A DNA stretch of 11,032 nucleotides from Chloroflexota bacterium (GTDB taxonomy: Bacteria > Chloroflexota > Anaerolineae > Promineifilales > Promineifilaceae), in contig QQUD01000980.1 in assembly GCA_008501785.1 (NCBI GenBank), forward strand, positions 1-11,032, in the 5' to 3' direction. This document shows, in pieces, positions 592-10,941 of the stretch (positions are counted from its first letter, which is position 1; the number at the start of each line of letters is the position of its first letter). Both the position numbers and the translations under genes were made by a program. The notes under the pieces are model-generated. The model worked only from the letters and a program-made list of their open reading frames with translations. It was not told the origin of the DNA and did no database searches.

Positions 592-1161
592 ATGGGTAAA
601 CGGCCGTTTCTAACCTACCAAACCCTCAACACATTGCCCGGTGCAACTGGCATCGTCTGTCTCTTCTTGGCAATAATTGTTGCTGCCATTGTTGTTTTTC
701 AAACGAAACATCAAACTCATCTGCGTGAAAACGGCATCGAAGTTAACGCTACCATTACCGACAAACGCATCATGCAGGTGAGTTCTGGCCGTGGGTATCG
801 CACCGATTATCAGATTTCAGTTATGTATTTTGATGATCCTTTAGCCGAACTGGGTGAGGATGCGCCAACTGAAGTATGGGATTTGGGTATGGGTATCGAA
901 ATTGAAATGCCTGTCATCGAAATTGGTGATTTCCATTCTGACGACATTTCAATCACTGAAGAGCGTTACCATTCACTGCGCGATGGGGGCGATCTTGCTG
1001 TCCTATACCTTCCTGAAAAACGAGACGAAGCATGGGTGGCAGATGCTGTGTACAACTATTCTGCCCGTGGCGGCTGGGTAGTAACGACAATTTTCATTCT
1101 GCTTGCTGGCCTGTTTTTATTTATTGCTATTCGAAAAAACACCAAAGCTGAGAAACCCTAA
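592..1161 (+). CDS. Two-TM membrane protein, DUF3592-like
   Basis: A 189-residue protein of unknown function. Predicted membrane segments lie at about residues 18-37 and 160-180, with a ~120-residue soluble domain between them. That domain has the DUF3592 layout: an ATIxxKR-like strand just after the first helix, an alternating Y-x-I-x-V-x-Y strand, and a late stretch of the kind 'GDLAVLYLPEK' resembling the G-x-x-V-x-V-Y-Y-x-P hallmark. It is less typical than the second copy at 5195. The start at 592 has GGAAGAAG at 577-584; the ATGs at 585 and 588 are out of frame. The palindrome AAACGGCCGTTT sits at codons 3-6. No partner is evident; the next gene is 560 bp away. Confidence 0.75.
   Translation: MGKRPFLTYQTLNTLPGATGIVCLFLAIIVAAIVVFQTKHQTHLRENGIEVNATITDKRIMQVSSGRGYRTDYQISVMYFDDPLAELGEDAPTEVWDLGMGIEIEMPVIEIGDFHSDDISITEERYHSLRDGGDLAVLYLPEKRDEAWVADAVYNYSARGGWVVTTIFILLAGLFLFIAIRKNTKAEKP
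600..607. repeat. ACGGCCGT palindrome, site 1
   Basis: Read in the frame K-R-P-F at the very start of the DUF3592-like gene; the perfect palindrome extends to 12 bp (598-609). By hand count the 50 bases to the left hold 14 G and 3 C, and the 50 to the right hold 7 G and 19 C. Confidence 0.9.
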
Positions 1162-1691: not shown

Positions 1692-1710
1692 TTTGATGTA
1701 TCAAAATTTT
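1687..1710. promoter_or_regulatory. Palindromic operator, likely the DtxR/MntR-type regulator's own site
   Basis: AAAATTTTGAT (1687-1697) and its exact reverse complement (1700-1710) flank a 2-nt GT centre, making a perfect 11+2+11 palindrome. Its size and AT-rich dyad suit a DtxR/MntR-family metalloregulator, and the next gene encodes one. It overlaps the -10 element and the expected transcription start, implying metal-dependent autorepression. The assignment rests on position and symmetry; the sequence does not match the classical DtxR box. Confidence 0.6.
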
Positions 1711-1711
1711 T

Positions 1712-1715
1712 GGAG
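1712..1715 (+). promoter_or_regulatory. Ribosome binding site that fixes the start of the regulator gene
   Basis: GGAG lies 6 nt before the ATG at 1722. An in-frame TTG at 1710 would overlap the operator and this Shine-Dalgarno, so 1722 is the better start. Confidence 0.75.
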
Positions 1716-1721
1716 TTGAGT

Positions 1722-2750
1722 ATGGTTAATCCAGCTATTGCTTTATTAGTTGCCGCTGTTATTGGCGGGTTGGTTGCCTTGATATGGTGGCCAGAAAAAG
1801 GAATATTGGCCCGTTGGCAGATTGCGAATCATTTGACAGAGCGGGTGCTGCAAGAGGATGCGCTAAAGCATATTCACAAGCGGGATATGAGTGGGCGGTC
1901 TTGCACGATGGAAAGCATTGCCGGAACGCTGCATATTAGCACGAATGATACGGCCGTTTTGCTCACATCCATGCAAAATGACGGACTGCTACTCATTGAA
2001 GATGGCAAGATTCACCTCACGCTTGCAGGACGAGATACGGCACTGCACATCATTCGTGCCCACCGGCTGTGGGAGCGCCATCTGGCCGAAGAGACTGGTT
2101 TTACGGAAACAGAATGGCATGCTCAGGCTGACTTACGTGAACACGCGTTGTCGCCGGATGAGTTGGATGCGTTGGCGTCCCGGCTGGGTAATCCGACACA
2201 TGATCCACATGGCGATCCCATTCCCACTGCCAGTGGTGAAATAGAGACGCATGGCGGTCAGCCATTGTCCCAACTGCCGTTGGATACACCGGCAATGATC
2301 GTGCATTTGGAAGATGAGCCAGATGTGGTGTATGCACAGCTTGTGGCCGAAGGGTTATATCCTGGCATGCCCGTGCGAGTCACGGAGCGGTCTGCCGAGC
2401 GTGTCCGCTTTTGGGCGAATGGGGATGAGCATATGTTGGCACCCATTTTGGCAAACAATATTTCGGTGGTGGAGACGGTTGTACCGGAAGAGATTGAGCT
2501 GGAAGCGGATGAGGTGTTGTCGAATGTGGGGGTGGGAGAAACGGCCGTTGTTACCAAATTGGCCCCTACCTGTCGCGGAGCCGAACGTCGTCGATTTATG
2601 GACCTGGGCATTCTTCCCGGCACACAAATTACCGCCGAAATTCGCAGCCCTGGTGGCGATCCCACTGGCTACCGCATTCGTGGCGCTGTCATCGCTTTAC
2701 GGCAAGAACAGGCAGGGCAAATTCGAGTAAAAAGAAGTAAGAATGAATAG
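1722..2750 (+). CDS. Membrane-anchored DtxR/MntR-type metalloregulator fused to FeoA
   Basis: A 342-residue fusion. Residues 4-22 are a strongly hydrophobic helix followed by WWPEKG, a membrane anchor that classical DtxR lacks. Residues ~40-105 form a winged helix, and 105-170 the DtxR dimerisation/metal domain, including the GDPIP stretch near 164-168. Aligned with DtxR, metal ligands appear kept at H114, E118, H133, E140 and H141, while the DtxR Cys102 position is Asp137, closer to the acidic residue in MntR. Residues ~180-250 resemble an SH3-like domain, and 270-336 are a FeoA domain with the RRRFMDLGILPG core. It probably senses Fe(II) or Mn(II), represses the operon, and supplies FeoA to the FeoB channel. 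The next gene starts 97 nt downstream across a hairpin. Domain identity is strong; in vivo metal and membrane topology are inferred. Confidence 0.85.
   Translation: MVNPAIALLVAAVIGGLVALIWWPEKGILARWQIANHLTERVLQEDALKHIHKRDMSGRSCTMESIAGTLHISTNDTAVLLTSMQNDGLLLIEDGKIHLTLAGRDTALHIIRAHRLWERHLAEETGFTETEWHAQADLREHALSPDELDALASRLGNPTHDPHGDPIPTASGEIETHGGQPLSQLPLDTPAMIVHLEDEPDVVYAQLVAEGLYPGMPVRVTERSAERVRFWANGDEHMLAPILANNISVVETVVPEEIELEADEVLSNVGVGETAVVTKLAPTCRGAERRRFMDLGILPGTQITAEIRSPGGDPTGYRIRGAVIALRQEQAGQIRVKRSKNE
1950..1957. repeat. ACGGCCGT palindrome, site 2
   Basis: Encodes T-A-V in the helix-turn-helix region of the regulator. Local skew change is weak: left 50 bases 13 G/11 C, right 50 bases 10 G/12 C, though C-rich codons continue for about 100 bases to the right. 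Confidence 0.9.
2541..2548. repeat. ACGGCCGT palindrome, site 3
   Basis: Encodes T-A-V at the entrance of the FeoA domain. Left 50 bases: 24 G/3 C. Right 50 bases: 12 G/15 C, with the first 22 bases holding 3 G/8 C, and C-rich codons persisting to about 2700. Confidence 0.9.
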
Positions 2751-2824
2751 GACACGGATAAACACAGAAAAACACAGATGAAACCAAAAAATCTGTGTTC
2801 ATCTGCGTTTTTCGGTGTTCTATT
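2746..2824. repeat. Long imperfect hairpin repeat between the regulator and feoB genes
   Basis: Arms 2746-2779 and 2791-2824 are each 34 nt and pair at 28 of 34 positions around an 11-nt loop. The left arm overlaps the regulator's stop codon. The arms contain ACACAGA and ACACGGATA words shared with the hairpin at 502-560, so this is a second member of the same family. No T-run follows, so it may only attenuate transcription into feoB or stabilise the 3' end of the upstream message. Confidence 0.75.
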
Positions 2825-2846
2825 TCTAAAAAAGTAGGACATTGAT

Positions 2847-3695
2847 ATGAAAGAGAATCGTCAATCGTCAATCGCCAATCATCAAGCATCTGATGCTTGT
2901 GCAACGTGTCCGGCACACAATGCGGGGAACTTGCTCAAGTTGGGTGTTGATATGGAAAACTGGGATTATGTGGTGGCGTTGGCCGGTAATCCCAACACTG
3001 GTAAAAGTACCGTTTTTAATGCACTAACCGGATTGCGGCAGCACACTGGCAACTGGCCTGGAAAAACGGTGACGCGTGCTGAAGGTGGATTCAGCTTTGG
3101 TGATCATCGTTACAAAATTGTAGATTTACCGGGTACCTATTCACTGCTTTCCACAAGTTTGGATGAAGAGGTGGCCCGTGATTTTATCTTGTTTGGGCAG
3201 CCGGATGTGACCATCATTGTGGTGGATGCGACCCGGTTGGAGCGCAATTTGAATTTAGCCCTGCAAGTGCTAGAAATTACCGATCGGGCGGTAATTTGCT
3301 TGAATTTGATGGATGAAGCCAAGCGGCACGGTATTGCAGTAGACGATCGGCGATTGGCGCGTGATTTGGGTGTGCCCGTGGTGCCGACGGCGGCGCGATA
3401 CGGTGAAGGGTTTGATTTGTTGCTGCAAGCGATTGCTGATGTGGCCACAGGTAAAACGGTTTGCAAACCACGTCGCATTAAAAATGAATCACCGGCAATT
3501 CGGCAGGCTTTGAAGAAGCTGGTGAGCCAGTTAACCACACTGTATCCGCAGTTACCAAATGCACGATGGGTAGCGCTGCGTTTGCTTGATGGCGATTTGC
3601 GCATAGCCGAGGCGCTGCGCAATGGCGAACTAGGCGATCTGACCAGTCAAGCCCCGGAAGAGGTGCAGAATTTACGCCTGGAGGTGATTTCATGA
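2847..3695 (+). CDS. feoB: FeoB GTPase domain as a separate protein (split FeoB, N-terminal half)
   Basis: A 282-residue cytoplasmic protein matching only the G domain and following helical region of FeoB. The G motifs are complete: G1 GNPNTGKST (47-55), the TGNWPGKT switch I region (67-74), G3 DLPG (93-96), G4 NLMD (153-156) and a G5-like TAAR at 181-184. GTP binding and hydrolysis would gate Fe(II) uptake by the membrane half, which begins in the overlapping next gene. Residues 1-36 are an extension with a CATCP segment (C18, C21). Start choice: AGGA at 2836-2839 sits 7 nt before the ATG. An in-frame ATG at 2952 would drop the extension, whose first part is encoded by tandem heptamers, but it lacks a good ribosome site. 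Usual FeoB is a single protein of about 700-800 residues. Confidence 0.93.
2859..2886. repeat. Tandem heptamer run in the feoB 5' end
   Basis: Four consecutive 7-nt units, CGTCAAT, CGTCAAT, CGCCAAT and CATCAAG, lie just inside the coding region. They lead into the palindrome CAAGCATC-T-GATGCTTG (2883-2899). The unit length is not a multiple of three, so changes of one unit would shift the frame. Confidence 0.7.
3680..3684 (+). promoter_or_regulatory. Ribosome binding site for the FeoB membrane half
   Basis: GGAGG sits 7 nt before the ATG at 3692, inside the end of the GTPase gene. With the ATGA overlap, it shows the second half is translated on its own and probably coupled to the first. Confidence 0.8.
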
Positions 3696-5164
3696 CAACA
3701 ATGCCTTTGACTTCTGATTCTATTCCGAGTGATGAGAATGACGCAGCTGTGGCTGTGGACGATGTGCTGAAAACGGCCGATTCATTGCGTTGGCAAATTG
3801 GCCGTAACTTTCATGAACGGTTGATGGAGGATATTTACACCGATGCTGCACAATTGGCAGATCGGGCGGTGACGCGTCCTGGTGAAAAACCGCGTTTTGA
3901 CCTGGATCGCACGATTGACCGGGTTGTGACCAGCCGCATTTGGGGATTTCCACTGATGATTTTGCTGTTTACGTTGGTCTTTTGGATCACAATTTCGGGT
4001 GCAAATGTGCCGTCAGGTTGGTTGGCGACATTGCTGCTGGATATGGGGCATCCATTTTTGAAGGGAATTTCGGCGACTATTGGGCTGCCTTGGTGGTTGG
4101 ATGGGCTGCTGCTGGATGGCATTTACATGGCAACGGCGTGGGTGATTAGCGTGATGCTGCCGCCGATGGCCATCTTTTTCCCGCTGTTTACGCTGTTGGA
4201 AGATTTTGGGTATTTGCCACGGGTGGCGTTTAACCTGGACAATGTTTTTAAGAAATCTGGTGCTCATGGCAAGCAGGCATTGAGCATGATGATGGGCTTT
4301 GGCTGTAACGCAGCGGGGATTGTGGCGACACGAGTGATTGACAGTCCGCGTGAACGACTGATTGCGATTATTTCGAATAATTTTGCGTTGTGTAACGGCC
4401 GTTGGCCCACTCAAATTTTAATCGCTACCTTGTTTATTGGCGGCATGGTTCCCGCGTATTTGGCGGGGCTGGTATCGGCGTTGGCGGTGGTGGGGATTGC
4501 GATGTTGGGCGTGCTGCTTACGTTTGCGGTTTCGTGGGGATTGTCGCGCACGGTGTTGAAGGGTGAAGTGTCCACGTTTAGTTTGGAACTGCCACCGTAC
4601 CGACCGCCGCGTGTGTGGCAGACGATTTATACATCGATGATTGATCGCACTATTTTTGTGCTGTGGCGAGCGATTGTGTTTGCTCTGCCTGCTGGGGCCG
4701 CGATTTGGTTGAGTGCGAATATCAACATTGCTGGCGTGAGCATTGCGGAGCATTTGATTACTTTTCTTAATCCAGTTGGTTGGTTGGTTGGTTTGAATGG
4801 CGTTATTTTGGTGGCGTACATTGTGGCAATTCCGGCGAATGAGATTGTGATCCCAACGATTTTGATGCTGACGGTGTTGGCTGCGGGCGTCACGGGGGCT
4901 GGTGAAGGGACTGGTGTCATGTTTGAATTGGACTCTGGTATGGAGACGATGGCGCTGTTTGATGCGGGGGGGTGGACGTTGTTAACGGCCGTTAACCTTA
5001 TGATCTTCTCCCTCATCCACAACCCATGTTCAACTACCATCTACACCATCTACAAAGAAACAGGCAGTCGCAAATGGACGCTGATTGCGTCTCTGCTGCC
5101 GGTCGTGATGGGTTTTGTAATCACGTTTTTGGTAGCGCAGATATGGTATTTGGTTGTAAATTAG
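3692..5164 (+). CDS. feoB: FeoB membrane channel as a separate protein (split FeoB, C-terminal half)
   Basis: A 490-residue polytopic protein matching the transmembrane part of FeoB. After a ~75-residue soluble linker come about ten membrane segments starting near residue 84. The first Gate domain has [10 protein letters not shown] (168-177), HGK (192-194) and GFGCN (202-206). It continues as LCNGRWP (233-239), where classical FeoB has a CSAR-type motif, and the later Gate has PANEIVIP in place of the usual AKE-containing stretch. These mark a divergent FeoB subfamily. Its gene overlaps the GTPase gene by four bases (ATGA) and lies in a different frame with its own strong ribosome site, so this is a genuine two-protein FeoB and not a simple frameshift. 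Function: Fe(II) permeation across the cytoplasmic membrane with the GTPase and FeoA partners. Confidence 0.92.
3773..3780. repeat. ACGGCCGA, single-base variant of the palindrome
   Basis: This encodes K-T-A-D in the linker of the FeoB membrane half. It is the only CGGCCG I found in the window that is not followed by T, and may be a decayed site. Confidence 0.7.
4395..4402. repeat. ACGGCCGT palindrome, site 4
   Basis: Encodes N-G-R within the CNGRWP motif of FeoB, a different frame from the T-A-V sites. Left 50 bases: 12 G/8 C. Right 50 bases: 10 G/13 C, with the first 28 holding about 3 G/9 C. Confidence 0.9.
4981..4996. repeat. ACGGCCGT palindrome, site 5, extended to a 16-bp perfect palindrome
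   Basis: GTTAACGGCCGTTAAC is a perfect 16-bp palindrome with the core at 4985-4992, encoding L-T-A-V-N. The skew switch is the sharpest in the window: left 50 bases 23 G/6 C, right 50 bases 2 G/19 C. Confidence 0.95.
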
Positions 5165-5194
5165 TACACTTTATCTACCAATGAAGTTAGCTTT

Positions 5195-5665
5195 ATGTTC
5201 GAAGCTGTTTTTGTAATTCCATTAATTATTTGTGCTTATGGTGTTTTTTTAGTAAAAGCCTGTTTGGTAATTTATTATTTGATTGCTCGAAACCGGTGGC
5301 GGTCAACGGATGGGAAAGTCGTTCATGCAAAAATTGTAAAGAAAAAAATTAGACGAGACAGGTTTAGATATTTCTATCAAACGCAGCTCGAATATGATTA
5401 TTTTGTTGATGATGTACTGTATCATGGACATCGTTTTTCTTTTGTTGAACGAATAAATTTTGGAAGAAACCCGGCTTATAGCAAAGATAATGCAGAGTTT
5501 ATCCTTAGATTTTATCCAGTTAATAGTGAAGTCTCTGTTTTATATAATCCCCGCAATCCATCACAAGCTGTTATAGAAAAAACCGTTGTCGATAGAAATA
5601 CAATTTTATTGTTTCTTGTCTATTTGGTGATGACAATGATGCTGATTTGTGTGTCTAGTGGTTAG
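5195..5665 (+). CDS. DUF3592 family membrane protein
   Basis: A 156-residue protein with the DUF3592 pattern: a first membrane segment at about 6-30, the RWRSTDGKVV strand just after it, a Y-x-Y strand followed by YHGHRFSF, the EVSVLYNPRNPSQAVIE hallmark, and a second membrane segment at about 137-154. Function is unknown for the family. It starts 30 nt after the feoB stop, possibly read through from the operon, but has only a weak Shine-Dalgarno (GAAG at 5183-5186). Base composition is clearly different from its neighbours: about 34-36% G+C in the stretch I counted (5281-5640) against about 57% in a sample of the adjacent feoB gene. It holds no ACGGCCGT site. This suggests recent acquisition or relaxed constraint. 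Confidence 0.82.
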   Translation: MFEAVFVIPLIICAYGVFLVKACLVIYYLIARNRWRSTDGKVVHAKIVKKKIRRDRFRYFYQTQLEYDYFVDDVLYHGHRFSFVERINFGRNPAYSKDNAEFILRFYPVNSEVSVLYNPRNPSQAVIEKTVVDRNTILLFLVYLVMTMMLICVSSG

Positions 5666-5712
5666 ATTGTCCTACCTTTTGCCTGAAAATTGACCCTATT
5701 CAACAGAGACAT

Positions 5713-5757
5713 TTTCCTTCAAAATACATACCATCTTGAATCAAGGATTGAAGGAAA
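5713..5757 (+). promoter_or_regulatory. Inverted repeat that could hide the ribosome site of the EamA gene
   Basis: TTTCCTTCAA (5713-5722) is the exact reverse complement of TTGAAGGAAA (5748-5757), which contains the AAGGA Shine-Dalgarno for the ATG at 5761. Pairing would close a 25-nt loop and mask the ribosome site. The stem is only 10 bp and AT-rich, so it is a candidate only. Confidence 0.4.
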
Positions 5758-5760
5758 TTC

Positions 5761-6696
5761 ATGCAAGCAACACAAACTGAACCCAACCTCACACGCGGCT
5801 ATTCAATTGCACTCACCAGCTCAATCGTTTTATCAACCACCGGCATTCTCATTCGCTACCTGACGCAAACGTATCAACTCCCATCGCTAATTCTCGCATT
5901 TTGGCGCGAACTGTTTGTCGTTGTTTCGCTTTTTGTGCTGTTGGCGCTATTTCGGCCAGTTTTGCTGCGGGTTAAACGTCAGCATTTGCGCTATTTGGTT
6001 GTTTATGGCTTTGTTTTGGCCATGTTTAACAGCTTTTGGACCTTATCAGTGTCGTTGAATGGTGCGGCAGTGGCAACTGTGCTTGCTTATTCATCTGCCG
6101 GTTTTACGGTGCTGCTGGGATGGGCTTTCTTGCAAGAGCGGATCGGTAAGGTGAAAATGTTGGCGGTTGTGTTGAGTATTGGCGGCTGTGTTCTGGTGGT
6201 TGGCGCCTTGGATCCAGAAGTGTGGCGCACAAATCTGATTGGCATTGTTGCGGGTATCTTTTCTGGTGTTTTTTATTCAGTTTATAGTCTTTTGGGTCGG
6301 TCTGCTTCCCAACGTGGGTTAAACGCTTGGTCAACATTATTATATATTTTTGGTTTTGGCTCAATTTTCTTGTTGAGCGTTAATTTGGTGTCAAACGGCT
6401 TTTTCCCAGGGTCTGCGACTCATCCAGGCGAGTTGTTGTGGTTGGGGAATGCATTGACTGGGTGGGGGATTTTGTTGCTGCTGGCTGTGGGGCCGACGCT
6501 GTTTGGGTATGGTTTGTACAATATGAGCTTGGGGTATTTGCCATCGAGCATTGCGCATTTGATTTTGACGACAGAGCCGGTGTTTACGGCCGTTATCGCC
6601 TTCTTCTTCCTCGGTGAAATTTTGACAGGTGTGCAAATTGGGGGCAGCGTAATGATTATGTGTGGCGTCATCTTCTTGCGAATTTATGGTGATTAA
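5761..6696 (+). CDS. EamA/DMT-superfamily transporter
   Basis: A 311-residue inner-membrane protein with about ten hydrophobic segments in two tandem five-helix EamA repeats (roughly 15-148 and 160-310). Each half ends in the usual pattern: YSSAGFTVLLGWAFLQER in the first and TTEPVFTAVIAFFFLGE in the second, where the acidic residue after the helix is the family mark. Members export amino acids, drugs or other small metabolites; substrate cannot be read from sequence. The start has AAGGA at 5751-5755, 5 nt upstream, within a possible masking hairpin. It is followed after 61 nt by modA, with a short inverted repeat between, so it is probably a separate unit. Length is normal for the family. 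Confidence 0.9.
   Translation: MQATQTEPNLTRGYSIALTSSIVLSTTGILIRYLTQTYQLPSLILAFWRELFVVVSLFVLLALFRPVLLRVKRQHLRYLVVYGFVLAMFNSFWTLSVSLNGAAVATVLAYSSAGFTVLLGWAFLQERIGKVKMLAVVLSIGGCVLVVGALDPEVWRTNLIGIVAGIFSGVFYSVYSLLGRSASQRGLNAWSTLLYIFGFGSIFLLSVNLVSNGFFPGSATHPGELLWLGNALTGWGILLLLAVGPTLFGYGLYNMSLGYLPSSIAHLILTTEPVFTAVIAFFFLGEILTGVQIGGSVMIMCGVIFLRIYGD
6586..6593. repeat. ACGGCCGT palindrome, site 6
   Basis: Encodes T-A-V in the last EamA repeat. The next 20 bases hold 8 C and 1 G, while the G-rich tract on the left lies a little further off (about 6440-6540). Confidence 0.9.
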
Positions 6697-6726
6697 GGTT
6701 GGTGCGTTGGTCTCGTGTTATACTCA

Positions 6727-6751
6727 CTCTCATCTTGAAATGTAATGAGAG
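6727..6751 (+). promoter_or_regulatory. Small inverted repeat touching the modA ribosome site
   Basis: CTCTCAT (6727-6733) pairs exactly with ATGAGAG (6745-6751) across an 11-nt loop, and the right arm runs into the purine-rich AGAGGAAGGA before the ATG at 6758. It could modulate modA translation or be an operator half-site. It does not resemble the ModE site as I know it. Confidence 0.3.
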
Positions 6752-6757
6752 GAAGGA

Positions 6758-7552
6758 ATGAGATTAAAACCGCTAGTATGGTGCGGGATATTACTTTTTC
6801 TTTTAGGATGCACTACAACTCAAGAGGGTGGTGAGCCAAATACCATAACCGTTTTTGCCGCTGCTTCCTTGACCGAAGCATTTACTGAATTAGGCGTCCA
6901 CTATGAAAAAACACATCCAGATGTACAGGTTGTGTTCAATTTTGCTGGCTCGCAGCAGTTGGCACAGCAGTTGGGGCAGGGTGCGCCGGGGGATGTGTTT
7001 GCCAGCGCAAATGAAAAGCAGATGATGAATGTGGTGGAAAACGGCCGTATTCTTCCCAACACCCCCCAGCCATTTACTCACAACGAACTGATCGTTATTT
7101 TTCCCGCTGATAATCCAGGAAACATTACCAAGCTCTCCGATTTAACAAATCCGGGTTTGAAAATTGTGATGGCAACCGAGGAGGTGCCGGTTGGTGCGTA
7201 TTCAATGCAATTTTTGCAAGCAGCATCTGGTGTAGATGGCTTGGGGGGTGGGTTTGAAACGGCCGTTCTTACCAATGTCGTTTCCTACGAGCAAAATGTG
7301 CGGTCTGTATTTAGCAAAGTTGCTTTAGGCGAGGCCGATGCTGGCATTGTTTACAGCAGTGATGTCGGTGTGAATACACAATCAGACGTGGGCCAAATCG
7401 AAATCCCACCCCAATGGAATGTCCTGGCTACCTATCCAATTGCACCTCTGGCAGACAGTACGCAGCCTAAACATGCACAAGACTTCATCAACTTTGTGGT
7501 CTCATCAGAAGGACAGCAAATTTTAGATATGTACGGTTTTCGGGGAAAATAG
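6758..7552 (+). CDS. modA: Molybdate ABC transporter substrate-binding lipoprotein
   Basis: A 264-residue periplasmic or surface lipoprotein that captures molybdate (or tungstate) and hands it to the ModB permease. The N-terminus is a lipoprotein signal: a short basic start, a hydrophobic stretch and the lipobox LLGC with C18 as the lipidation site. Mature-protein signatures are AAASLT (34-39), NFAGSQQL (61-68), GAPGDVFASA (75-84) and the VPVGAYS stretch near 143-150, all typical of the ModA oxyanion pocket. The purine-rich stretch AGAGGAAGGA lies directly before the ATG. modB begins 5 nt after the stop, so the two are co-transcribed. Two ACGGCCGT sites (7041, 7259) fall within the gene. Confidence 0.93.
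   Translation: MRLKPLVWCGILLFLLGCTTTQEGGEPNTITVFAAASLTEAFTELGVHYEKTHPDVQVVFNFAGSQQLAQQLGQGAPGDVFASANEKQMMNVVENGRILPNTPQPFTHNELIVIFPADNPGNITKLSDLTNPGLKIVMATEEVPVGAYSMQFLQAASGVDGLGGGFETAVLTNVVSYEQNVRSVFSKVALGEADAGIVYSSDVGVNTQSDVGQIEIPPQWNVLATYPIAPLADSTQPKHAQDFINFVVSSEGQQILDMYGFRGK
7041..7048. repeat. ACGGCCGT palindrome, site 7
   Basis: Encodes N-G-R in modA. Left 50 bases: 17 G/5 C. Right 50 bases: 4 G/19 C, including a run of six C. Confidence 0.95.
7259..7266. repeat. ACGGCCGT palindrome, site 8
   Basis: Encodes T-A-V in modA. Left 50 bases: 19 G/5 C, including a run of six G. Right 50 bases: 10 G/11 C, with the first 24 bases leaning to C (7 C, 3 G). Confidence 0.92.
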
Positions 7553-7557
7553 CGCGT

Positions 7558-8379
7558 ATGACAAGATACCGCAGCCAACGCCCCCCACATCGATCAGGGC
7601 GAAAAATTAGCAATGTATGGTGGACGATGAGTGTGCCGCTGCTTTTGTTTTTATTGCTGCCATTGTTGGCCTTAATTTGGCGGGGCAACCCGATGCAGAT
7701 TGTGTCAAATTTAAACAATCCAACTGTGATACAGGCAATCTTGTTGAGCTTAAAAACGAGCAGCATTACGACCTTAGTCAGTTTTTTGTTTGGCACGCCA
7801 TTGGCTTTTGTGATGGCTCGCACTGTGTTTCGTGGCAAACGGTTTTTGGATACGCTCATAGATTTGCCCACGGTATTGCCACCAGCCGTGGCTGGTGTGG
7901 CCTTGTTGATGGCGTTTGGTCGCAGGGGACTCCTTGGTGGTGTGCTGGAGATGGCTGGGGTGACGGTGGGGTTTACGGAAACGGCCGTTATCCTCGCCCA
8001 AACATTCATTGCGGCACCATTGTTTGTAAAAACGGCCGTGACCGGATTCGCCGCAATTCCACACGAACTAGAGCAAGCTGCTGCCCTCGATGGCGCAAAT
8101 TCATGGTATATCTTTCGATTTATCACCATTCCGCTTTCCCGCCCTGCCTTGCTGACTGGAGCAGTACTCACCTGGGCACGTGCACTTGGGGAATTTGGCG
8201 CAACCATCATTTTTGCCGGGAACTTTCCAGGGCGAACACAAACAATGCCATTAGCTATCTACATCGGCTTTGAGATCGATTTAAACATCGCTTTGACGTT
8301 ATCAGTTATTTTAATGGGATTATCTTTCCTAGTTCTTGTTTTGATAAAAGGTTTGTTTTGGCAAGATGATGAGGAGTAA
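7558..8379 (+). CDS. modB: Molybdate ABC transporter permease
   Basis: A 273-residue inner-membrane permease forming the molybdate channel with ModA outside and a ModC ATPase inside. About five to six membrane segments lie between residues 25 and 265. The cytoplasmic coupling loop is clear: EQAAALDGA at 172-180 leading to the proline at 192, followed by the ModB-typical ALGEFGATIIF (209-219). The start at 7558 is 5 nt after the modA stop but has no convincing Shine-Dalgarno (a GGGG at 7542-7545 is too far), suggesting translational coupling; an in-frame ATG at 7627 would remove the basic N-terminal tail. Unusually, no modC follows: the next gene runs toward it from the opposite strand. Two palindromes, 7981 and 8032, lie 51 bp apart inside. 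Confidence 0.93.
   Translation: MTRYRSQRPPHRSGRKISNVWWTMSVPLLLFLLLPLLALIWRGNPMQIVSNLNNPTVIQAILLSLKTSSITTLVSFLFGTPLAFVMARTVFRGKRFLDTLIDLPTVLPPAVAGVALLMAFGRRGLLGGVLEMAGVTVGFTETAVILAQTFIAAPLFVKTAVTGFAAIPHELEQAAALDGANSWYIFRFITIPLSRPALLTGAVLTWARALGEFGATIIFAGNFPGRTQTMPLAIYIGFEIDLNIALTLSVILMGLSFLVLVLIKGLFWQDDEE
7981..7988. repeat. ACGGCCGT palindrome, site 9
   Basis: Encodes T-A-V in modB. Left 50 bases: 24 G/6 C. The 42 bases to the right, up to the next site: 6 G/12 C. Confidence 0.95.
8032..8039. repeat. ACGGCCGT palindrome, site 10
   Basis: Encodes T-A-V in modB, 51 bp (17 codons) after site 9. C-rich composition continues on its right: 8041-8090 hold 11 G and 18 C. Confidence 0.92.
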
Positions 8380-8389
8380 TATGATAAAA

Positions 8390-8430
8390 TCAAAGATGGC
8401 CCATATTACATACACATGGGCCATCTTTGA
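8390..8430. terminator. Bidirectional terminator between modB and the histidine kinase gene
   Basis: A perfect 15-bp stem, 8390-8404 with 8416-8430, closes an 11-nt loop. On the minus strand it is followed by TTTTATC, a good fit to an intrinsic terminator just after the kinase stop codon. On the plus strand the trailing bases are only moderately T-rich. It lies between convergent genes, where a shared terminator is expected. Confidence 0.88.
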
Positions 8431-8435
8431 ATAAG

Positions 8436-10208
8436 TTAAAATGTTTCAAATTTTAGATCTGCGTCTGCCAATTCAGAAGAAGATAAAGAATCAGAAGCGA
8501 TTTGTTGGGGAATAGGTAACGACATTTCAAATAACGCACCTCCCCAGCGGCTTTCCTTAACAACAAGCGTGCCATCGTGTGCTTCAATTACCATTTTACA
8601 GAAAGTAAGACCCAAGCCAGCCCCGCGTCGTTCGGTCCCTTTCGCCTGGCCAAACTTTTCAAAAATATACTCTCTGTCTTCAGCAGGTACACCAGGACCA
8701 TTATCTGCAAATTGGATCATCATCCGGTCTATATCAACCAATACGTTAATTTCAATTTTCCCTTCTTCCGGTGTGAATTTCAATGCATTGCTGATTAGAT
8801 TGTTAAAAACACGCTGCAAAAGCCGTTTGTCAACCCGTACTGAGGGCAAGAGAGTTGGGCTTGTAAGTGACAAAGTCTGATGATGCGTTCCCGCTACAAT
8901 TTGGTTTTCATCAACACAGTATTTCAATATTTTAGTAATATTCGTATGGCTTGGTTGCATTTCTAATTGGTTTGCTTCGAGCCGTTCGACATCTAACAAA
9001 TCATTGATGAGGGAAATGATATGTTTTCCAGACTTTTCGAGTTTGTTCAGAAGTCGCTGTTGTGTTTCAGATATCTCCCCAAGATTCCCTTTCGACATCA
9101 AGTTCATGCCGCTTGTGATAACGGTTAGTGGGCTTTTTAAATCATGGACAATGAGTTGCGTTAATTCGGTGCGTAAACGCTGCTCACGCTTCAAGGCTTC
9201 TGTTCGCTCTGTAATGAGCCGATTTAAATACATGACAATGACAAACAGAATAAGAAAGCTTAAAGCCCCCTGAATTAAGATGATTGGAATAACATAAGTG
9301 CGCTGTAACTCAAGATCAAGTAAACGGGCTGTAAATTCACCAAAAATGAGTGCAATTGCGCCAATGAGGACGATGCCCAAGGTTGCAAAATACCTTGTAA
9401 ATTGAATATTTTGTTCAGACTCATAGGTAGATAAAATGGCAGATACAGCAATCATAAATGCTGATAATGTCACGGGGTGGTAGAGCAGCCAATTGTAGCC
9501 ACCTAAATCGCCAAACGCCTGGAAAAATTGAGCTTCAGCCAATAACAAAAGCACAATTGAAATACGCTTATTAATGTACGGATATGCATTCCATTCTAAT
9601 CGCCAGCTATACCAGGCTGCACTGCACAATAAAGAGATTGCCACAAGTGCTAAAAGATTTTCTAATAGTGGACTATATTGGTGCAAAGAAGAAAATGATG
9701 CAGGATTAATAACGACAATAATTGAGTAACAGAGTATAAAGATTGCCCCTAAACTCCAAAAAATTCGCCGAAACTTGGTGAGGTTTTTGCTGATTAGCTT
9801 ATGCCAGGGCAAATGACCAAGGAAAAAAAAGACGCTGCCTAGCGGATATGCAAATCGTAAGGACCAAAAATAAATATCGGCGTATGTTGGAGAGGCTATA
9901 ATTTGTGGTGTACCGATGCTGCTGATTAATAGCATAACCGAAATATTCACGAATGCGATTGGAATGAACATGGTTCGTGGGTGGGATTCATCGCCAAGCG
10001 AGTTGCTCGTAAATATTGCAGCAACCAATGAGACCAGGCTAGCAAATGAGCCGACGTAAAATTCAATCAGGTATGTGTCCCAGGTAACCGGCCAATTTTT
10101 AATATCAATGTTTGGAAGAAATCTAAGAAACAGGTACAAGATCAGTGGGATAGCTAAAATGGCTATTTGTAAGTACCGTCGCTTATGCGTGTGAAAGACA
10201 GATAACAT
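8436..10208 (-). CDS. Multi-TM sensor histidine kinase (orphan)
   Basis: A 590-residue membrane kinase that autophosphorylates and would pass phosphate to a response regulator. The N-terminal 330 residues hold about ten hydrophobic segments (for example 14-31, 50-69, 81-99, 150-167, 183-201, 245-260, 274-291, 305-328) and form a sensor domain I cannot assign to a named family. A short coiled region (330-350) leads directly to HisKA with H355 in VHDLKSP. The HATPase domain has the N box at 469-478, DNGPG at 502-506, a FEKFG F-box at 516-520 and GAGLGL at 529-534. All catalytic elements look intact. There is no HAMP or PAS domain and no response regulator nearby, so its partner must be elsewhere. 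The gene is relatively AT-rich and has no ACGGCCGT site. Confidence 0.93.
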   Translation of the reverse strand: MLSVFHTHKRRYLQIAILAIPLILYLFLRFLPNIDIKNWPVTWDTYLIEFYVGSFASLVSLVAAIFTSNSLGDESHPRTMFIPIAFVNISVMLLISSIGTPQIIASPTYADIYFWSLRFAYPLGSVFFFLGHLPWHKLISKNLTKFRRIFWSLGAIFILCYSIIVVINPASFSSLHQYSPLLENLLALVAISLLCSAAWYSWRLEWNAYPYINKRISIVLLLLAEAQFFQAFGDLGGYNWLLYHPVTLSAFMIAVSAILSTYESEQNIQFTRYFATLGIVLIGAIALIFGEFTARLLDLELQRTYVIPIILIQGALSFLILFVIVMYLNRLITERTEALKREQRLRTELTQLIVHDLKSPLTVITSGMNLMSKGNLGEISETQQRLLNKLEKSGKHIISLINDLLDVERLEANQLEMQPSHTNITKILKYCVDENQIVAGTHHQTLSLTSPTLLPSVRVDKRLLQRVFNNLISNALKFTPEEGKIEINVLVDIDRMMIQFADNGPGVPAEDREYIFEKFGQAKGTERRGAGLGLTFCKMVIEAHDGTLVVKESRWGGALFEMSLPIPQQIASDSLSSSELADADLKFETF

Positions 10209-10221
10209 ACGTTAAACGTAT
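10207..10221 (-). promoter_or_regulatory. Palindrome overlapping the kinase start codon
   Basis: ATACGTT-A-AACGTAT is a perfect 7+1+7 palindrome. On the minus strand it includes the first bases of the ATG and fills the 12-nt gap between the AAGGA Shine-Dalgarno (complement of 10221-10225) and the start codon. It could be an operator or a small hairpin limiting translation. No protein is identified as binding it. Confidence 0.45.
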
Positions 10222-10336
10222 CCTTAAATGCTGACTTTCTTCCTTACAAAAGATGGCTTAAAGATTAGGAAAGTTTAAGATAATAGCAGCAAACTTGTGG
10301 GTTAAGCTGCTGGCTTGACCTGGTGAATAACAACGA

Positions 10337-10353
10337 GACAAACAGGGTTTGTC
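10337..10353. repeat. Small hairpin between the divergent kinase and acetyltransferase genes
   Basis: GACAAAC (10337-10343) and GTTTGTC (10347-10353) pair perfectly across three bases. It lies 25 bp before the acetyltransferase start and would be in its leader. The sequence resembles short dispersed hairpin repeats more than a terminator, since no T-run follows. Confidence 0.5.
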
Positions 10354-10377
10354 CTACGATTTACAAAGGAATTAAAA

Positions 10378-10941
10378 ATGCACCCAATTATGCGTGATTT
10401 TCCGTTTGAATTTGAAACAGAGCGATTAACAATTCGTGGCCCATTGCCCGGTGATGGCAAAGAAGTACAGGCTGCTGTTGCAGAATCTATTGATGAATTA
10501 CGGCCGTGGATGCCGTGGGCTACCGAAGTACCCACTGTTAAGGTGTCGGAAATACGAGTTCGAGAAAAGTATTTGGATTTTTTGGCACGAAGGGATTTGA
10601 TTTTGCATTTGTTTTTGCAGGGAACGCATACGTTTATTGGTAGCAGTGGTTTGCATCGTATTGATTGGAGTGTTCCCAGTTTTGAAATCGGGTATTGGGT
10701 GCGAACGTCTTTTTCACGGAAGGGATTTATTACAGAGGCTGTGAGAGGTATTTCGAATTTTGCATTTGAGCAATTGGAGGCTAAACGTGTCGAAATACGC
10801 TGTGATGCCAAAAATGTACGGAGTGCTGCTATCCCGCAACGACTTGGATTTGTACTTGAGGGGACCCTGCGCAATGAAGCAGTTGATCACATCACTGGTG
10901 AATTACGGGATACGATGATCTTTGCTAAGATTGTTGAGTAG
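10378..10941 (+). CDS. GNAT-family N-acetyltransferase, RimJ/RimL-like
   Basis: A 187-residue cytoplasmic enzyme expected to transfer acetyl from acetyl-CoA to an amino group. The family order is complete: ERLTIRGP near the N-terminus (15-22), a central strand ending EIGYWVR (103-109), the acetyl-CoA loop SRKGFITEAV (113-122, in place of the commoner GKGYATEA), then the N-x-x-S-x-x-I-x-x-x-LGFVLEGTLR segment (146-165) typical of the RimJ/RimL branch that modifies ribosomal or other proteins and some antibiotics. The start has AAAGGA at 10365-10370, 7 nt before the ATG. It diverges from the kinase and seems to stand alone. Substrate unknown. Confidence 0.9.
   Translation: MHPIMRDFPFEFETERLTIRGPLPGDGKEVQAAVAESIDELRPWMPWATEVPTVKVSEIRVREKYLDFLARRDLILHLFLQGTHTFIGSSGLHRIDWSVPSFEIGYWVRTSFSRKGFITEAVRGISNFAFEQLEAKRVEIRCDAKNVRSAAIPQRLGFVLEGTLRNEAVDHITGELRDTMIFAKIVE
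10500..10507. repeat. ACGGCCGT palindrome, site 11
   Basis: Read as L-R-P-W in the acetyltransferase, the third possible frame. Left 50 bases: 15 G/6 C. Right 50 bases: 16 G/11 C, so the C-rich half is absent here. Confidence 0.9.

Follow-up and report, generated by a model that had tools for sequence, protein, structure and literature searches.

A strand-skew sawtooth is centred on a highly iterated palindrome in genomes of one Chloroflexota order

The window, which is the whole 11,032-nt stretch of Chloroflexota DNA analysed here, carries 11 copies of the palindromic octamer ACGGCCGT, compared with 0.11 expected. An ORF at 1710..2750 (+) combines an iron-dependent-repressor domain with a FeoA domain and contains two sites, 1950..1957 and 2541..2548. 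FeoB is encoded as a GTPase part (FeoB_N, 2847..3695, +) and a membrane part (Gate and FeoB_C, 3692..5164, +); the latter, which is the basis of the cross-genome position test, contains the sites 4395..4402 and 4985..4992. Site 6586..6593 is located in an EamA-transporter ORF. Two sites, 7041..7048 and 7259..7266, are located in a solute-binding-protein ORF (6758..7552, +), and two more, 7981..7988 and 8032..8039 (43 nt past the preceding one), in a binding-protein-dependent permease ORF (7558..8379, +). The remaining copies are found near the start of the ORF 592-1161 (600..607) and in a GNAT acetyltransferase ORF (10500..10507). The sites are not assigned to a strand. Every site lies within a predicted ORF, and a recount reproduced all 11 positions listed by the sequence-only reading of this DNA. 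An Rfam search of the window gave no match.

In the 50-nt flanks of all 11 sites, 183 G and 78 C were counted on the left, and 105 G and 162 C on the right. Without site 8032, the left flanks hold 174 G and 63 C, the same figure that had been obtained by hand. The switch in G minus C averages 14.7 over the 11 sites, compared with 0.03 ± 2.3 at random positions, and none of 5000 random-position sets equals the observed mean. These results confirm that the skew switch at ACGGCCGT in the window is real and far beyond chance. The sharpest switch is observed at 4985 (23 G/6 C, then 2 G/19 C; +34), and a similarly sharp one at 7041 (17 G/5 C, then 4 G/19 C; +27), both with the counts originally reported. 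Site 2541 also exhibits a strong switch (24 G/3 C, then 12 G/15 C); the flanks of site 600 hold 14 G/3 C and then 7 G/19 C, and the switches at 7981, 7259 and 4395 are +24, +15 and +7. Sites 1950 and 10500 are indeed weak, as had been noted (+4 each), but the switchless site 6586 had not been flagged. In all, the switch is above 0 at 9 of the 11 sites and exactly 0 at 6586 and 8032. Other palindromes in the window show no switch (6-mers, n=100, mean -0.03; 8-mers, n=21, mean -0.05). The extent originally given to the pattern, 2491-8090, is too narrow, because the pattern reaches site 600.

At third codon positions of the window, neither the near nor the far gain of a logistic model was matched by any of 104 shifted site sets. 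The skew had been described as drifting back between sites. In all nine intervals of more than 100 nt, the last quarter is more G-skewed than the first, but just four of the nine begin with a quarter below 0, and no clean ramp is seen in, for example, 4403-4984 and 6594-7040. The interval 7049-7258 forms a full sawtooth, with quarters of -0.65, -0.39, +0.46 and +0.54. The proposed enrichment of T on the left and A on the right was not borne out in the window, where the T/A switch is not significant (50 nt: +1.6, sd 2.7, p=0.28). The described change of leucine codons across the 4985 site is broadly right, with the exceptions of TTA at 4982 and the return of CTG at 5081.

Since all window sites lie in ORFs, a coding effect is possible on the window evidence alone, and this placement would fit an origin of the pattern in chance, codon usage or the protein sequence around the octamer. 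Alignment columns 733 (site 4395) and 1353 (site 4985) of the FeoB membrane part each carry the octamer in 17 of 18 site-rich loci, a group defined by a density cut-off and including the window and L074 (2 copies). The octamer is also present at a site column in nine feoB loci outside the site-rich group, which indicates that the protein sequence favours it there. However, at the same FeoB columns, genomes without the site show skew of opposite sign; the group with the site comprises 57 column-locus pairs from five columns, is column-weighted and takes in nine loci outside the 18. A reciprocal ortholog test was null on the side without the site. The skew tracks the site, not the protein position. 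A codon or amino-acid cause is ruled out by the FeoB columns, the orthologs and the noncoding sites described below; together with the random-position sets, these observations refute an origin in chance or coding, to which we attach practically no weight.

ACGGCCGT is a highly iterated palindrome (HIP) in many genomes of one Chloroflexota order. It occurs in 2,887 to 15,176 copies each in 16 of the 24 relatives' genomes searched. Genome G014 contains 15,031 copies in 7.2 Mb (mean spacing of 507 nt in its sample), and the combined samples of G012 and G014 contain 1369, compared with 19.5 expected. Sister genomes of the same order use substitute palindromes, TCGGCCGA in G016 (1155 in the sample compared with 36.8 expected) and TGCCGGCA in G017. 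Most sites in the genome-scale samples lie within ORFs. One-base deviants of ACGGCCGT in G012+G014 reach 1.66 and 1.67 of expectation at the end positions and 0.39-0.94 inside; for TCGGCCGA in G016 the end bias is weaker (0.92 and 0.82, compared with 0.37-0.85 inside). These sites are HIP-like. HIPs are a feature of cyanobacteria, whereas the members of a set of 80 FeoB relatives with a best-segment identity of at least 75% are Chloroflexota by name, with the exception of L024 (titled only 'bacterium'). In L068, CATTAATG shows no G/C skew in its 15 copies in 21 kb and is probably a local repeat.

Averaging around the sites in genome-scale samples, as proposed in the sequence-only reading, places the centre of the switch at the palindrome that the genome itself uses and shows that the switch fades with distance. 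Third codon positions exhibit it in genes of either strand, as do noncoding sites, and the values for control palindromes and shifted positions are near 0. The strand that runs 5´ to 3´ into the site carries more G than C and, at long range, more T than A. The G excess peaks within about 40 nt of the site, falls across the interval and changes sign near its middle. At third positions, the skew starts at -0.2/-0.3 on the right of a site and reaches +0.25/+0.37 on the left of the following one, and its course is near-linear in both the 500-1500 nt intervals of G016 (-0.28 to +0.28) and the 150-500 nt intervals of G012+G014 (-0.30 to +0.37). The sawtooth is seen with all three palindromes, each in the genomes using it. 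The data show that the sampled genomes are tiled by a skew sawtooth whose period is about 0.5 to 1 kb; that the pattern exists is near certain. The skew at decoy palindromes is small or absent; non-own CGGCCG decoys in two genomes give +0.03 to +0.05 up to a distance of 20 nt, and -0.02 to +0.03 farther away. Position-specific flank structure is weak past about 5 nt, codon phase aside.

Likelihood gains for G/C range from 275 to 1066 log units, compared with at most 7.1 for circular shifts; in the simpler model, the far G/C gains are 690 and 275, while 40 shifts each reach no more than 5.7 and 7.1. For G012+G014, the best fit is just 8 log units ahead of a 60-nt term with a 5-nt correction, and a model with two free short-range terms (5 nt and up to 80 nt) was therefore used. 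The long-range term stayed: added to this model, an interval-fraction term gains 271 (G016), 207 (G012+G014) and 136 (G002) log units for G/C and 60, 16.5 and 27 for T/A, respectively. The maximum G/C gains in 12 shifts each are 18.3 (G016) and 5.2 (G012+G014). A long-range skew term is needed. In the larger sets, the far coefficient for T/A amounts to 0.4-0.8 of that for G/C, which argues that plain cytosine deamination is insufficient; in one small subgroup the ratio is 1.1. The T/A component is small or absent close to sites, and in G014 control palindromes match the T/A excess at 30-100 nt.

The second-neighbour and adjacent G/C coefficients are 0.16 and 0.59 in G016, 0.14 and 0.36 in G012+G014, 0.15 and 0.58 in G002, and 0.02 and 0.43 in ten loci; the T/A second-neighbour coefficient lies about 2 standard errors from 0 or closer. 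The exception is G017, in which the G/C coefficient is larger for the second neighbour (0.64 ± 0.20) than for the adjacent sites (0.28). In most sets, the long-range skew ends for the most part at the next site. The reset at that site is incomplete, with a second-neighbour gain of 10-11 log units in G016 and G012+G014.

A switch that is centred, decays with distance, is bounded and has null controls is naturally read as a process acting outward from a palindromic site, and points to some DNA-handling process that may begin or end at each palindrome copy. The sequence-only reading had proposed such an outward process. Its centring, decay, controls and bounding are supported, but its mutational nature is unproven because divergence is not higher near sites, no C-to-T excess is seen and the near T/A component is small. 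Forks or transcripts that converge on each site would give a local replication or transcription asymmetry with the observed sign, the one expected of a terminus at the site, and an excess of G/C over T/A skew is usual in bacterial replication. With sites every ~0.5 to 1 kb, mostly in genes, and the same pattern on both gene strands and at noncoding positions, however, such convergence is most improbable.

The reading that we consider most likely, although at somewhat less than even confidence, is that each site serves as an entry point for strand-polar excision and resynthesis. One strand would be opened at each site, most simply by a nick, and the strand with its 5´ end at the site would be removed 5´ to 3´ and resynthesised, as in excision of the mismatch-repair type. 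The opposite strand, with its 3´ side toward the site, would be repeatedly exposed as template and acquire a bias like that of a replication leading strand. If excision ran from the site to lesions placed randomly before the next site, strand exposure would change linearly over the interval, which would produce both the sawtooth and its reset. The excess of G over C within 40 nt would be a separate component, either a context preferred by the site-binding machinery or its footprint.

Among close relatives, 87-94% of the palindrome sites are conserved, compared with 44-55% of other octamers. Divergence at fourfold sites is not raised near sites between G012 and G007 (0.233 and 0.266 near, 0.263 far), nor in the other two genome pairs. 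First and second codon positions within 15 nt are slightly more diverged (0.070, 0.050 and 0.056, compared with 0.059, 0.045 and 0.046). A simple local mutation hot zone is unsupported, since fourfold divergence near conserved sites equals that far from them. Polarised changes in the 5´ flank reveal no C-to-T excess in four overlapping comparisons, with C-to-T/G-to-A rate ratios of 0.89-1.06 at 41-400 nt and 0.74-0.92 at 3-40 nt. Within 40 nt, transversions lean in the expected direction (C-to-A/G-to-T 1.19-4.52; C-to-G/G-to-C 0.87-1.69). Given its noise and outgroup distances of about 9-12%, this spectrum is not decisive. Of 29 sites present in G012 and missing from G007, 23 have no other site within 60 nt, and at these G007 retains the flank skew (+0.157 compared with +0.171). 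At 12 sites found in G007 only, with the same isolation, the flanks have a skew of +0.162 in the genome carrying the site and of +0.100 ± 0.044 in the one lacking it. The 23 and 12 gained or lost sites are too few to separate cause from effect. A hairpin or cruciform was rejected as a general cause because the flanks are not complementary in register beyond cross-site pairing (z of -2.4 to +1.1 in G012+G014; in G016, two of the nine bins, those at 1 nt and 7-10 nt, give +2.8).

Weak selection would account for several of these observations without a local mutation bias, if the flanks belonged to the functional site and a G-rich strand leading into the palindrome helped a nucleoid, recombination or segregation protein to bind or load. 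The site conservation, the normal divergence, the near component of G over C with little T/A, unlike deamination, and the flank skew that persists after site loss all fit. However, selection of this kind does not easily give a sign change at mid-interval hundreds of nucleotides away, the long-range T/A component or the scarcity of position-specific structure, and we consider it a somewhat doubtful explanation.

MutL was found in 17 of 18 genomes (not in G007) and is not specific to site-bearing ones, while MutH was found in none of the 18, with a positive E. coli control; a MutH-less type of mismatch repair is thus available. None of the three methyltransferase families searched follows the distribution of the sites: PF00145 occurs in 6 of 10 ACGGCCGT-rich genomes searched, PF01555 gives weak matches alone, in G010, G011 and G024, and PF02086 occurs in 18 of 19 genomes, site-bearing or not, and is only weak in G012. 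Neither these three families nor MutH yielded an effector gene. Restriction-like double-strand breaks at the palindrome, followed by 5´-to-3´ resection, would leave exposed 3´ tails that gain a strand bias of the right polarity for both T/A and G/C. The depletion of core-changed near-miss octamers (0.37-0.94 of expectation) might also result from near-site restriction. However, cleavage at up to 15,000 sites would kill a cell that did not protect them, the three methyltransferase families yielded no shared modification gene, and resection is not expected to end largely at the next site; breaks of this kind are improbable.

In weighing excision, we counted in its favour the linear sawtooth, the needed long-range term, the small second-neighbour term, the long-range T/A skew, the noncoding sites, the three palindromes, the dependence on site rather than protein position, and MutL without MutH. 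Counted against it were the normal divergence, the lack of a C-to-T excess, the incomplete reset, the G017 exception, the control T/A skew in G014, the untracked methyltransferases, the skew that outlives site loss and, from the systems compared below, the missing GATC skew and the small HIP1 skew.

In these genomes, composition at third codon positions, and weakly at first and second positions, varies with how far away the nearest palindrome lies, a dependence relevant to phylogenetics, studies of codon usage and gene calling in this group. It is plausible, at somewhat less than even odds, that these Chloroflexota run a site-addressed, strand-polar repair or synthesis system that enters at thousands of genome-specific palindromes and leaves a kilobase-scale sawtooth.

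A comparable system is methyl-directed mismatch repair by E. coli MutHLS, in which a strand is excised from short GATC palindromes a few hundred bases apart. MutHLS excision proceeds in both directions, the 657 GATC sites in 150 kb of E. coli K-12 show no surrounding skew, and the 18 genomes searched here lack MutH. Replication origins and termini also exhibit a skew sign change at a functional site, often stronger in G/C than in T/A, but with one or two switches per chromosome rather than thousands spaced by about a kilobase or less. Chi sites and DNA uptake sequences are likewise short, highly over-represented words, tied to recombination or uptake, but they are not palindromic, and we know of no flank sawtooth around them. 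HIPs were described in cyanobacteria in 1995 (PMC4390886). Cyanobacterial HIP1 (GCGATCGC) and the alternate HIPs resemble the present sites in their many-fold enrichment, density of ~1/kb or more, use of alternative GC-rich palindromes by related genomes and, for the ACGGCCGT clade, near-misses that gather at the first and last base; no mention of a flank sawtooth is known to us from that account, whose main text does not contain the word 'skew' (Elhai 2015, PMC4390886). HIP1 differs from ACGGCCGT in phylum and sequence. At 223 HIP1 sites on three cyanobacterial plasmids, the pooled skew reaches +0.10 at 0-10 nt; at greater distances it differs from 0 by less than 2 standard errors, and a far G/C term is absent. 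Trichormus alone gives +0.08 ± 0.03 at 20-40 nt. A sawtooth as a general HIP property is thus unsupported on these plasmids, the only replicons in this test. The Chloroflexota sites represent a HIP-like system in another phylum with a measurable average polar signature around three palindromes. This signature provides a handle on the events at HIP sites, namely the identity of the exposed strand, the extent of exposure and the point at which the process ends. To our knowledge, HIPs have no agreed function; if the excision reading is true, the sawtooth would document excision polarity at HIP-like sites in sequence for the first time and give a direct clue to the purpose of HIPs.

The palindromic octamer ACGGCCGT occurs 11 times in the window, against 0.11 expected from shuffles. 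The sequence-only reading had described G/T-rich flanks to the left of these sites and C/A-rich flanks to the right; its hand counts of G and C were reproduced on recount, and the T/A switch in the window is not significant. The G/C switch, taken as G minus C of the left flank less that of the right (positive when the G-rich strand points into the site), averages 14.7 in 50-nt flanks and is positive at 9 of the 11 sites and 0 at 2. Random window positions give 0.03 ± 2.3, and none of 5000 random sets attains 14.7. At 100 other six-mer palindromes in the window the switch averages -0.03, and at 21 eight-mer ones -0.05. A logistic skew model with a short-range (near) and a long-range (far) term gains 43.5 and 14.8 log units, respectively, which is matched by 0 of 104 shifted site sets. 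The longest gap between sites, 8040-10499 (2,460 nt), spans a minus-strand histidine kinase gene (8436-10208). A pair of 88-nt direct repeats (85% alike) lies in the intergenic region 1296-1510, together with several short copies and with inverted arms; these may be part of a dispersed repeat family. Intergenic inverted repeats at 2746-2824 (34-nt arms, 82% complementary) and 500-560 (16-nt arms, 88%) are rich in the words 'cacggat...cacagat' and 'aacacggat'.

FeoB is split at 2847-5164 into a GTPase ORF and a membrane ORF with a 4-base overlap, and the ORF upstream carries repressor and FeoA domains. A search with the membrane part (3692-5164) yielded 80 relatives, most of which bear the names Anaerolineae or Chloroflexi. 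Sixteen of their 80 feoB loci carry between 4 and 52 copies of ACGGCCGT; the whole genomes of these 16 contain 2,887 to 15,176 copies versus 55 to 459 of the reversed word, and the remaining 8 of the 24 genomes searched contain 14 to 188. Within the order of the relative G014, 30 of 56 genomes have at least 1,700 copies and 26 have fewer than 1,200. The order also includes G026, G050 and G055-G057, where the reversed word occurs only 4 to 43 times and ACGGCCGT 83 to 1,727 times, which may represent a weaker over-representation. Alternative palindromes are found in the sister genomes G016 (TCGGCCGA) and G017 (TGCCGGCA). We infer that the window comes from this group. A further word, CATTAATG, has 15 copies within 21 kb of sequence from a Caldilineaceae MAG, and its flanks there show no G/C skew.

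Genome-scale profiles, for which the sequence-only reading had proposed comparison with control palindromes and shuffled positions and a split by third codon position and gene strand, bear out the G/C pattern. Skew was calculated as (G-C)/(G+C), with each flank read in the direction of the site. At 508 sites in 260 kb of G014, skew in the first three bins (0-10, 10-20 and 20-30 nt) measures +0.26, +0.20 and +0.16, and it falls to approximately +0.02 at 50-75 nt; beyond 10 nt, 373 control palindromes and 2176 other GGCC all lie within 0.015 of 0. CGGCCG outside the octamer (241 in G014) gives +0.05 and +0.03 within 20 nt and lies within 0.02 of 0 farther out. A small T/A excess at 30-100 nt in G014 is equalled at control palindromes. 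A set of 861 sites from G012, another ACGGCCGT-bearing relative, gives the same G/C outcome. In G016, skew at 1155 TCGGCCGA is initially +0.08 to +0.18 and fades gradually over more than 300 nt, accompanied by an excess of T over A; 78 TGCCGGCA in G017 give +0.17 and +0.23. Among the feoB loci, skew at 2-40 nt is positive in 15 of 16, the other (4 sites) giving 0.00.

The skew arises at the DNA level. Third codon positions in G014 show +0.36 (0-15 nt) and +0.34 (15-30 nt), with both gene strands and both flanks concordant; first and second positions show +0.15 and +0.14, then +0.09 and +0.05. A coding cause is ruled out by three observations. Noncoding bases beside noncoding G014 sites show +0.31 and +0.16. 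In the feoB alignment, window sites 4395 and 4985 fall in columns 733 and 1353, at each of which 17 of the 18 site-rich loci have a site, as 12 of 18 do at a third column; the half-switch at 30 and 60 nt is +0.13 and +0.17 where the site is present, and where it is absent -0.14 and -0.08 in non-site-rich loci and -0.15 and -0.14 in site-rich loci. The octamer at one such column is also found in 9 non-site-rich loci, showing that the protein sequence favours it at these columns. Finally, 20 ortholog-like pairs were compared, with one member from G012/G014 and the other from G016: a genome's own sites give +0.30±0.04 (38) and +0.20±0.05 (22), and the same columns in the partner genome give 0.00±0.04 and -0.05±0.05.

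At third positions between consecutive sites within one gene, skew climbs from -0.28 to +0.28 across 184 G016 intervals (500-1500 nt); in the pooled G012 and G014 samples (395 intervals, 150-500 nt) it starts at -0.30 and ends at +0.37. Both cross zero near mid-interval. A conserved, genome-specific palindrome delimits intervals of graded strand asymmetry. With a gene-strand offset included, the model gains 546 near and 690 far for G/C in G016 and 1066 and 275 in the pooled samples; T/A gains are 76 and 68, and 0 and 32, respectively. Forty circular shifts of the sites gain at most 7.1. Six decoy words gain more than the shifts (up to 22 near and 8 far), but their coefficients are small and vary in sign (for example, CCGG: +0.14 in G016, -0.14 in the pooled samples). 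Ten other feoB loci pooled gain 164 near and 68 far, and G017 gains 60 and 20. The best-fitting far terms have a scale of at least 500 nt or are proportional to interval fraction, and the data do not distinguish these; in the pooled samples, a 5-nt correction added to a 60-nt term brings the fit to just 8 units short of the best. Even with two short-range terms in the model, G/C gains another 271 (G016), 207 (pooled samples) and 136 (G002, a further relative) from the far term, and 12 shifts per set add at most 18.3 in G016 and 5.2 in the pooled samples. Sites past the nearest contribute little: second-neighbour G/C coefficients are approximately 1/4 to 2/5 of the adjacent one in these three sets and near 0 in the ten pooled loci, and those for T/A are within approximately 2 standard errors of 0. 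G017 departs from this, with a second-neighbour G/C coefficient of 0.64±0.20 versus 0.28 for the adjacent site. Two parts of the skew emerge from these fits: up to approximately 40 nt from a site G exceeds C (near), and at longer range G exceeds C and T exceeds A (far). With the far term modelled, ACGGCCGT sets have negative near T/A coefficients (-0.25, -0.76 and -0.64), meaning A in excess of T; of the bases adjoining a site, 32% are A and 18% T.

The sites themselves are retained. In aligned cases, G012 sites persist in 190 of 219 (G007), 114 of 121 (G005) and 94 of 101 (G014), noncoding ones included (12/15, 11/13 and 7/8); other octamers are identical in 44-55% of cases. Skew remains where one genome lacks the site. 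In the pooled samples and G016, one-base core deviants occur at 0.37-0.94 of expectation; deviants at the two end positions are enriched in the pooled samples. The words GCGGCCGC and CCGGCCGG stand at approximately 0.3-0.7 of expectation in the same samples.

The simplest mechanism, which we hold tentatively and rate somewhat short of probable, is strand-polar excision and resynthesis from the sites. Excision would start at a site and run toward randomly placed lesions, giving a linear gradient that is reset at the next site. The enriched strand has its 3' side at the site, so this strand would be the exposed one and its complement, whose 5' end lies there, the one removed. Several results argue against such excision: divergence is not elevated close to sites, polarised substitutions show no C-to-T excess, G/C skew is stronger than T/A skew, and the reset at the next site is incomplete. 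Confidence is slightly lowered further by the G017 exception and the 60-nt fit, which bears on the decay scale. The chief competing explanation, above all for the near component, is selection acting on the composition of the flanks.

Among the open-licence papers listed for the three octamers, for highly iterated palindromes (HIPs) in Chloroflexi, for GC skew at HIP1, the cyanobacterial HIP, and for repair- or palindrome-linked skew, none describes this pattern in its title or abstract opening. A 2018 study reportedly argued that HIP1 is under selection. E. coli GATC (657 sites) shows no skew. At 223 HIP1 sites on cyanobacterial plasmids, skew is +0.10 over the first 10 nt and, in the pooled data, does not exceed 2 standard errors farther out, with +0.08±0.03 at 20-40 nt in Trichormus alone; its G/C gain is 8.5 near and 0.04 far, and its T/A far gain is 4.7. 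The nearest published idea found is Elhai's model, in which a mismatch-repair system maintains HIPs (PMC4390886, section 3.4); that passage does not mention flank skew. As described in the abstract of the same article, HIP1 near-misses are depleted in the core and enriched at the ends (PMC4390886), and the palindrome of G012 and G014 resembles HIP1 in this pattern, with core deviants rarer and those at the two ends commoner.
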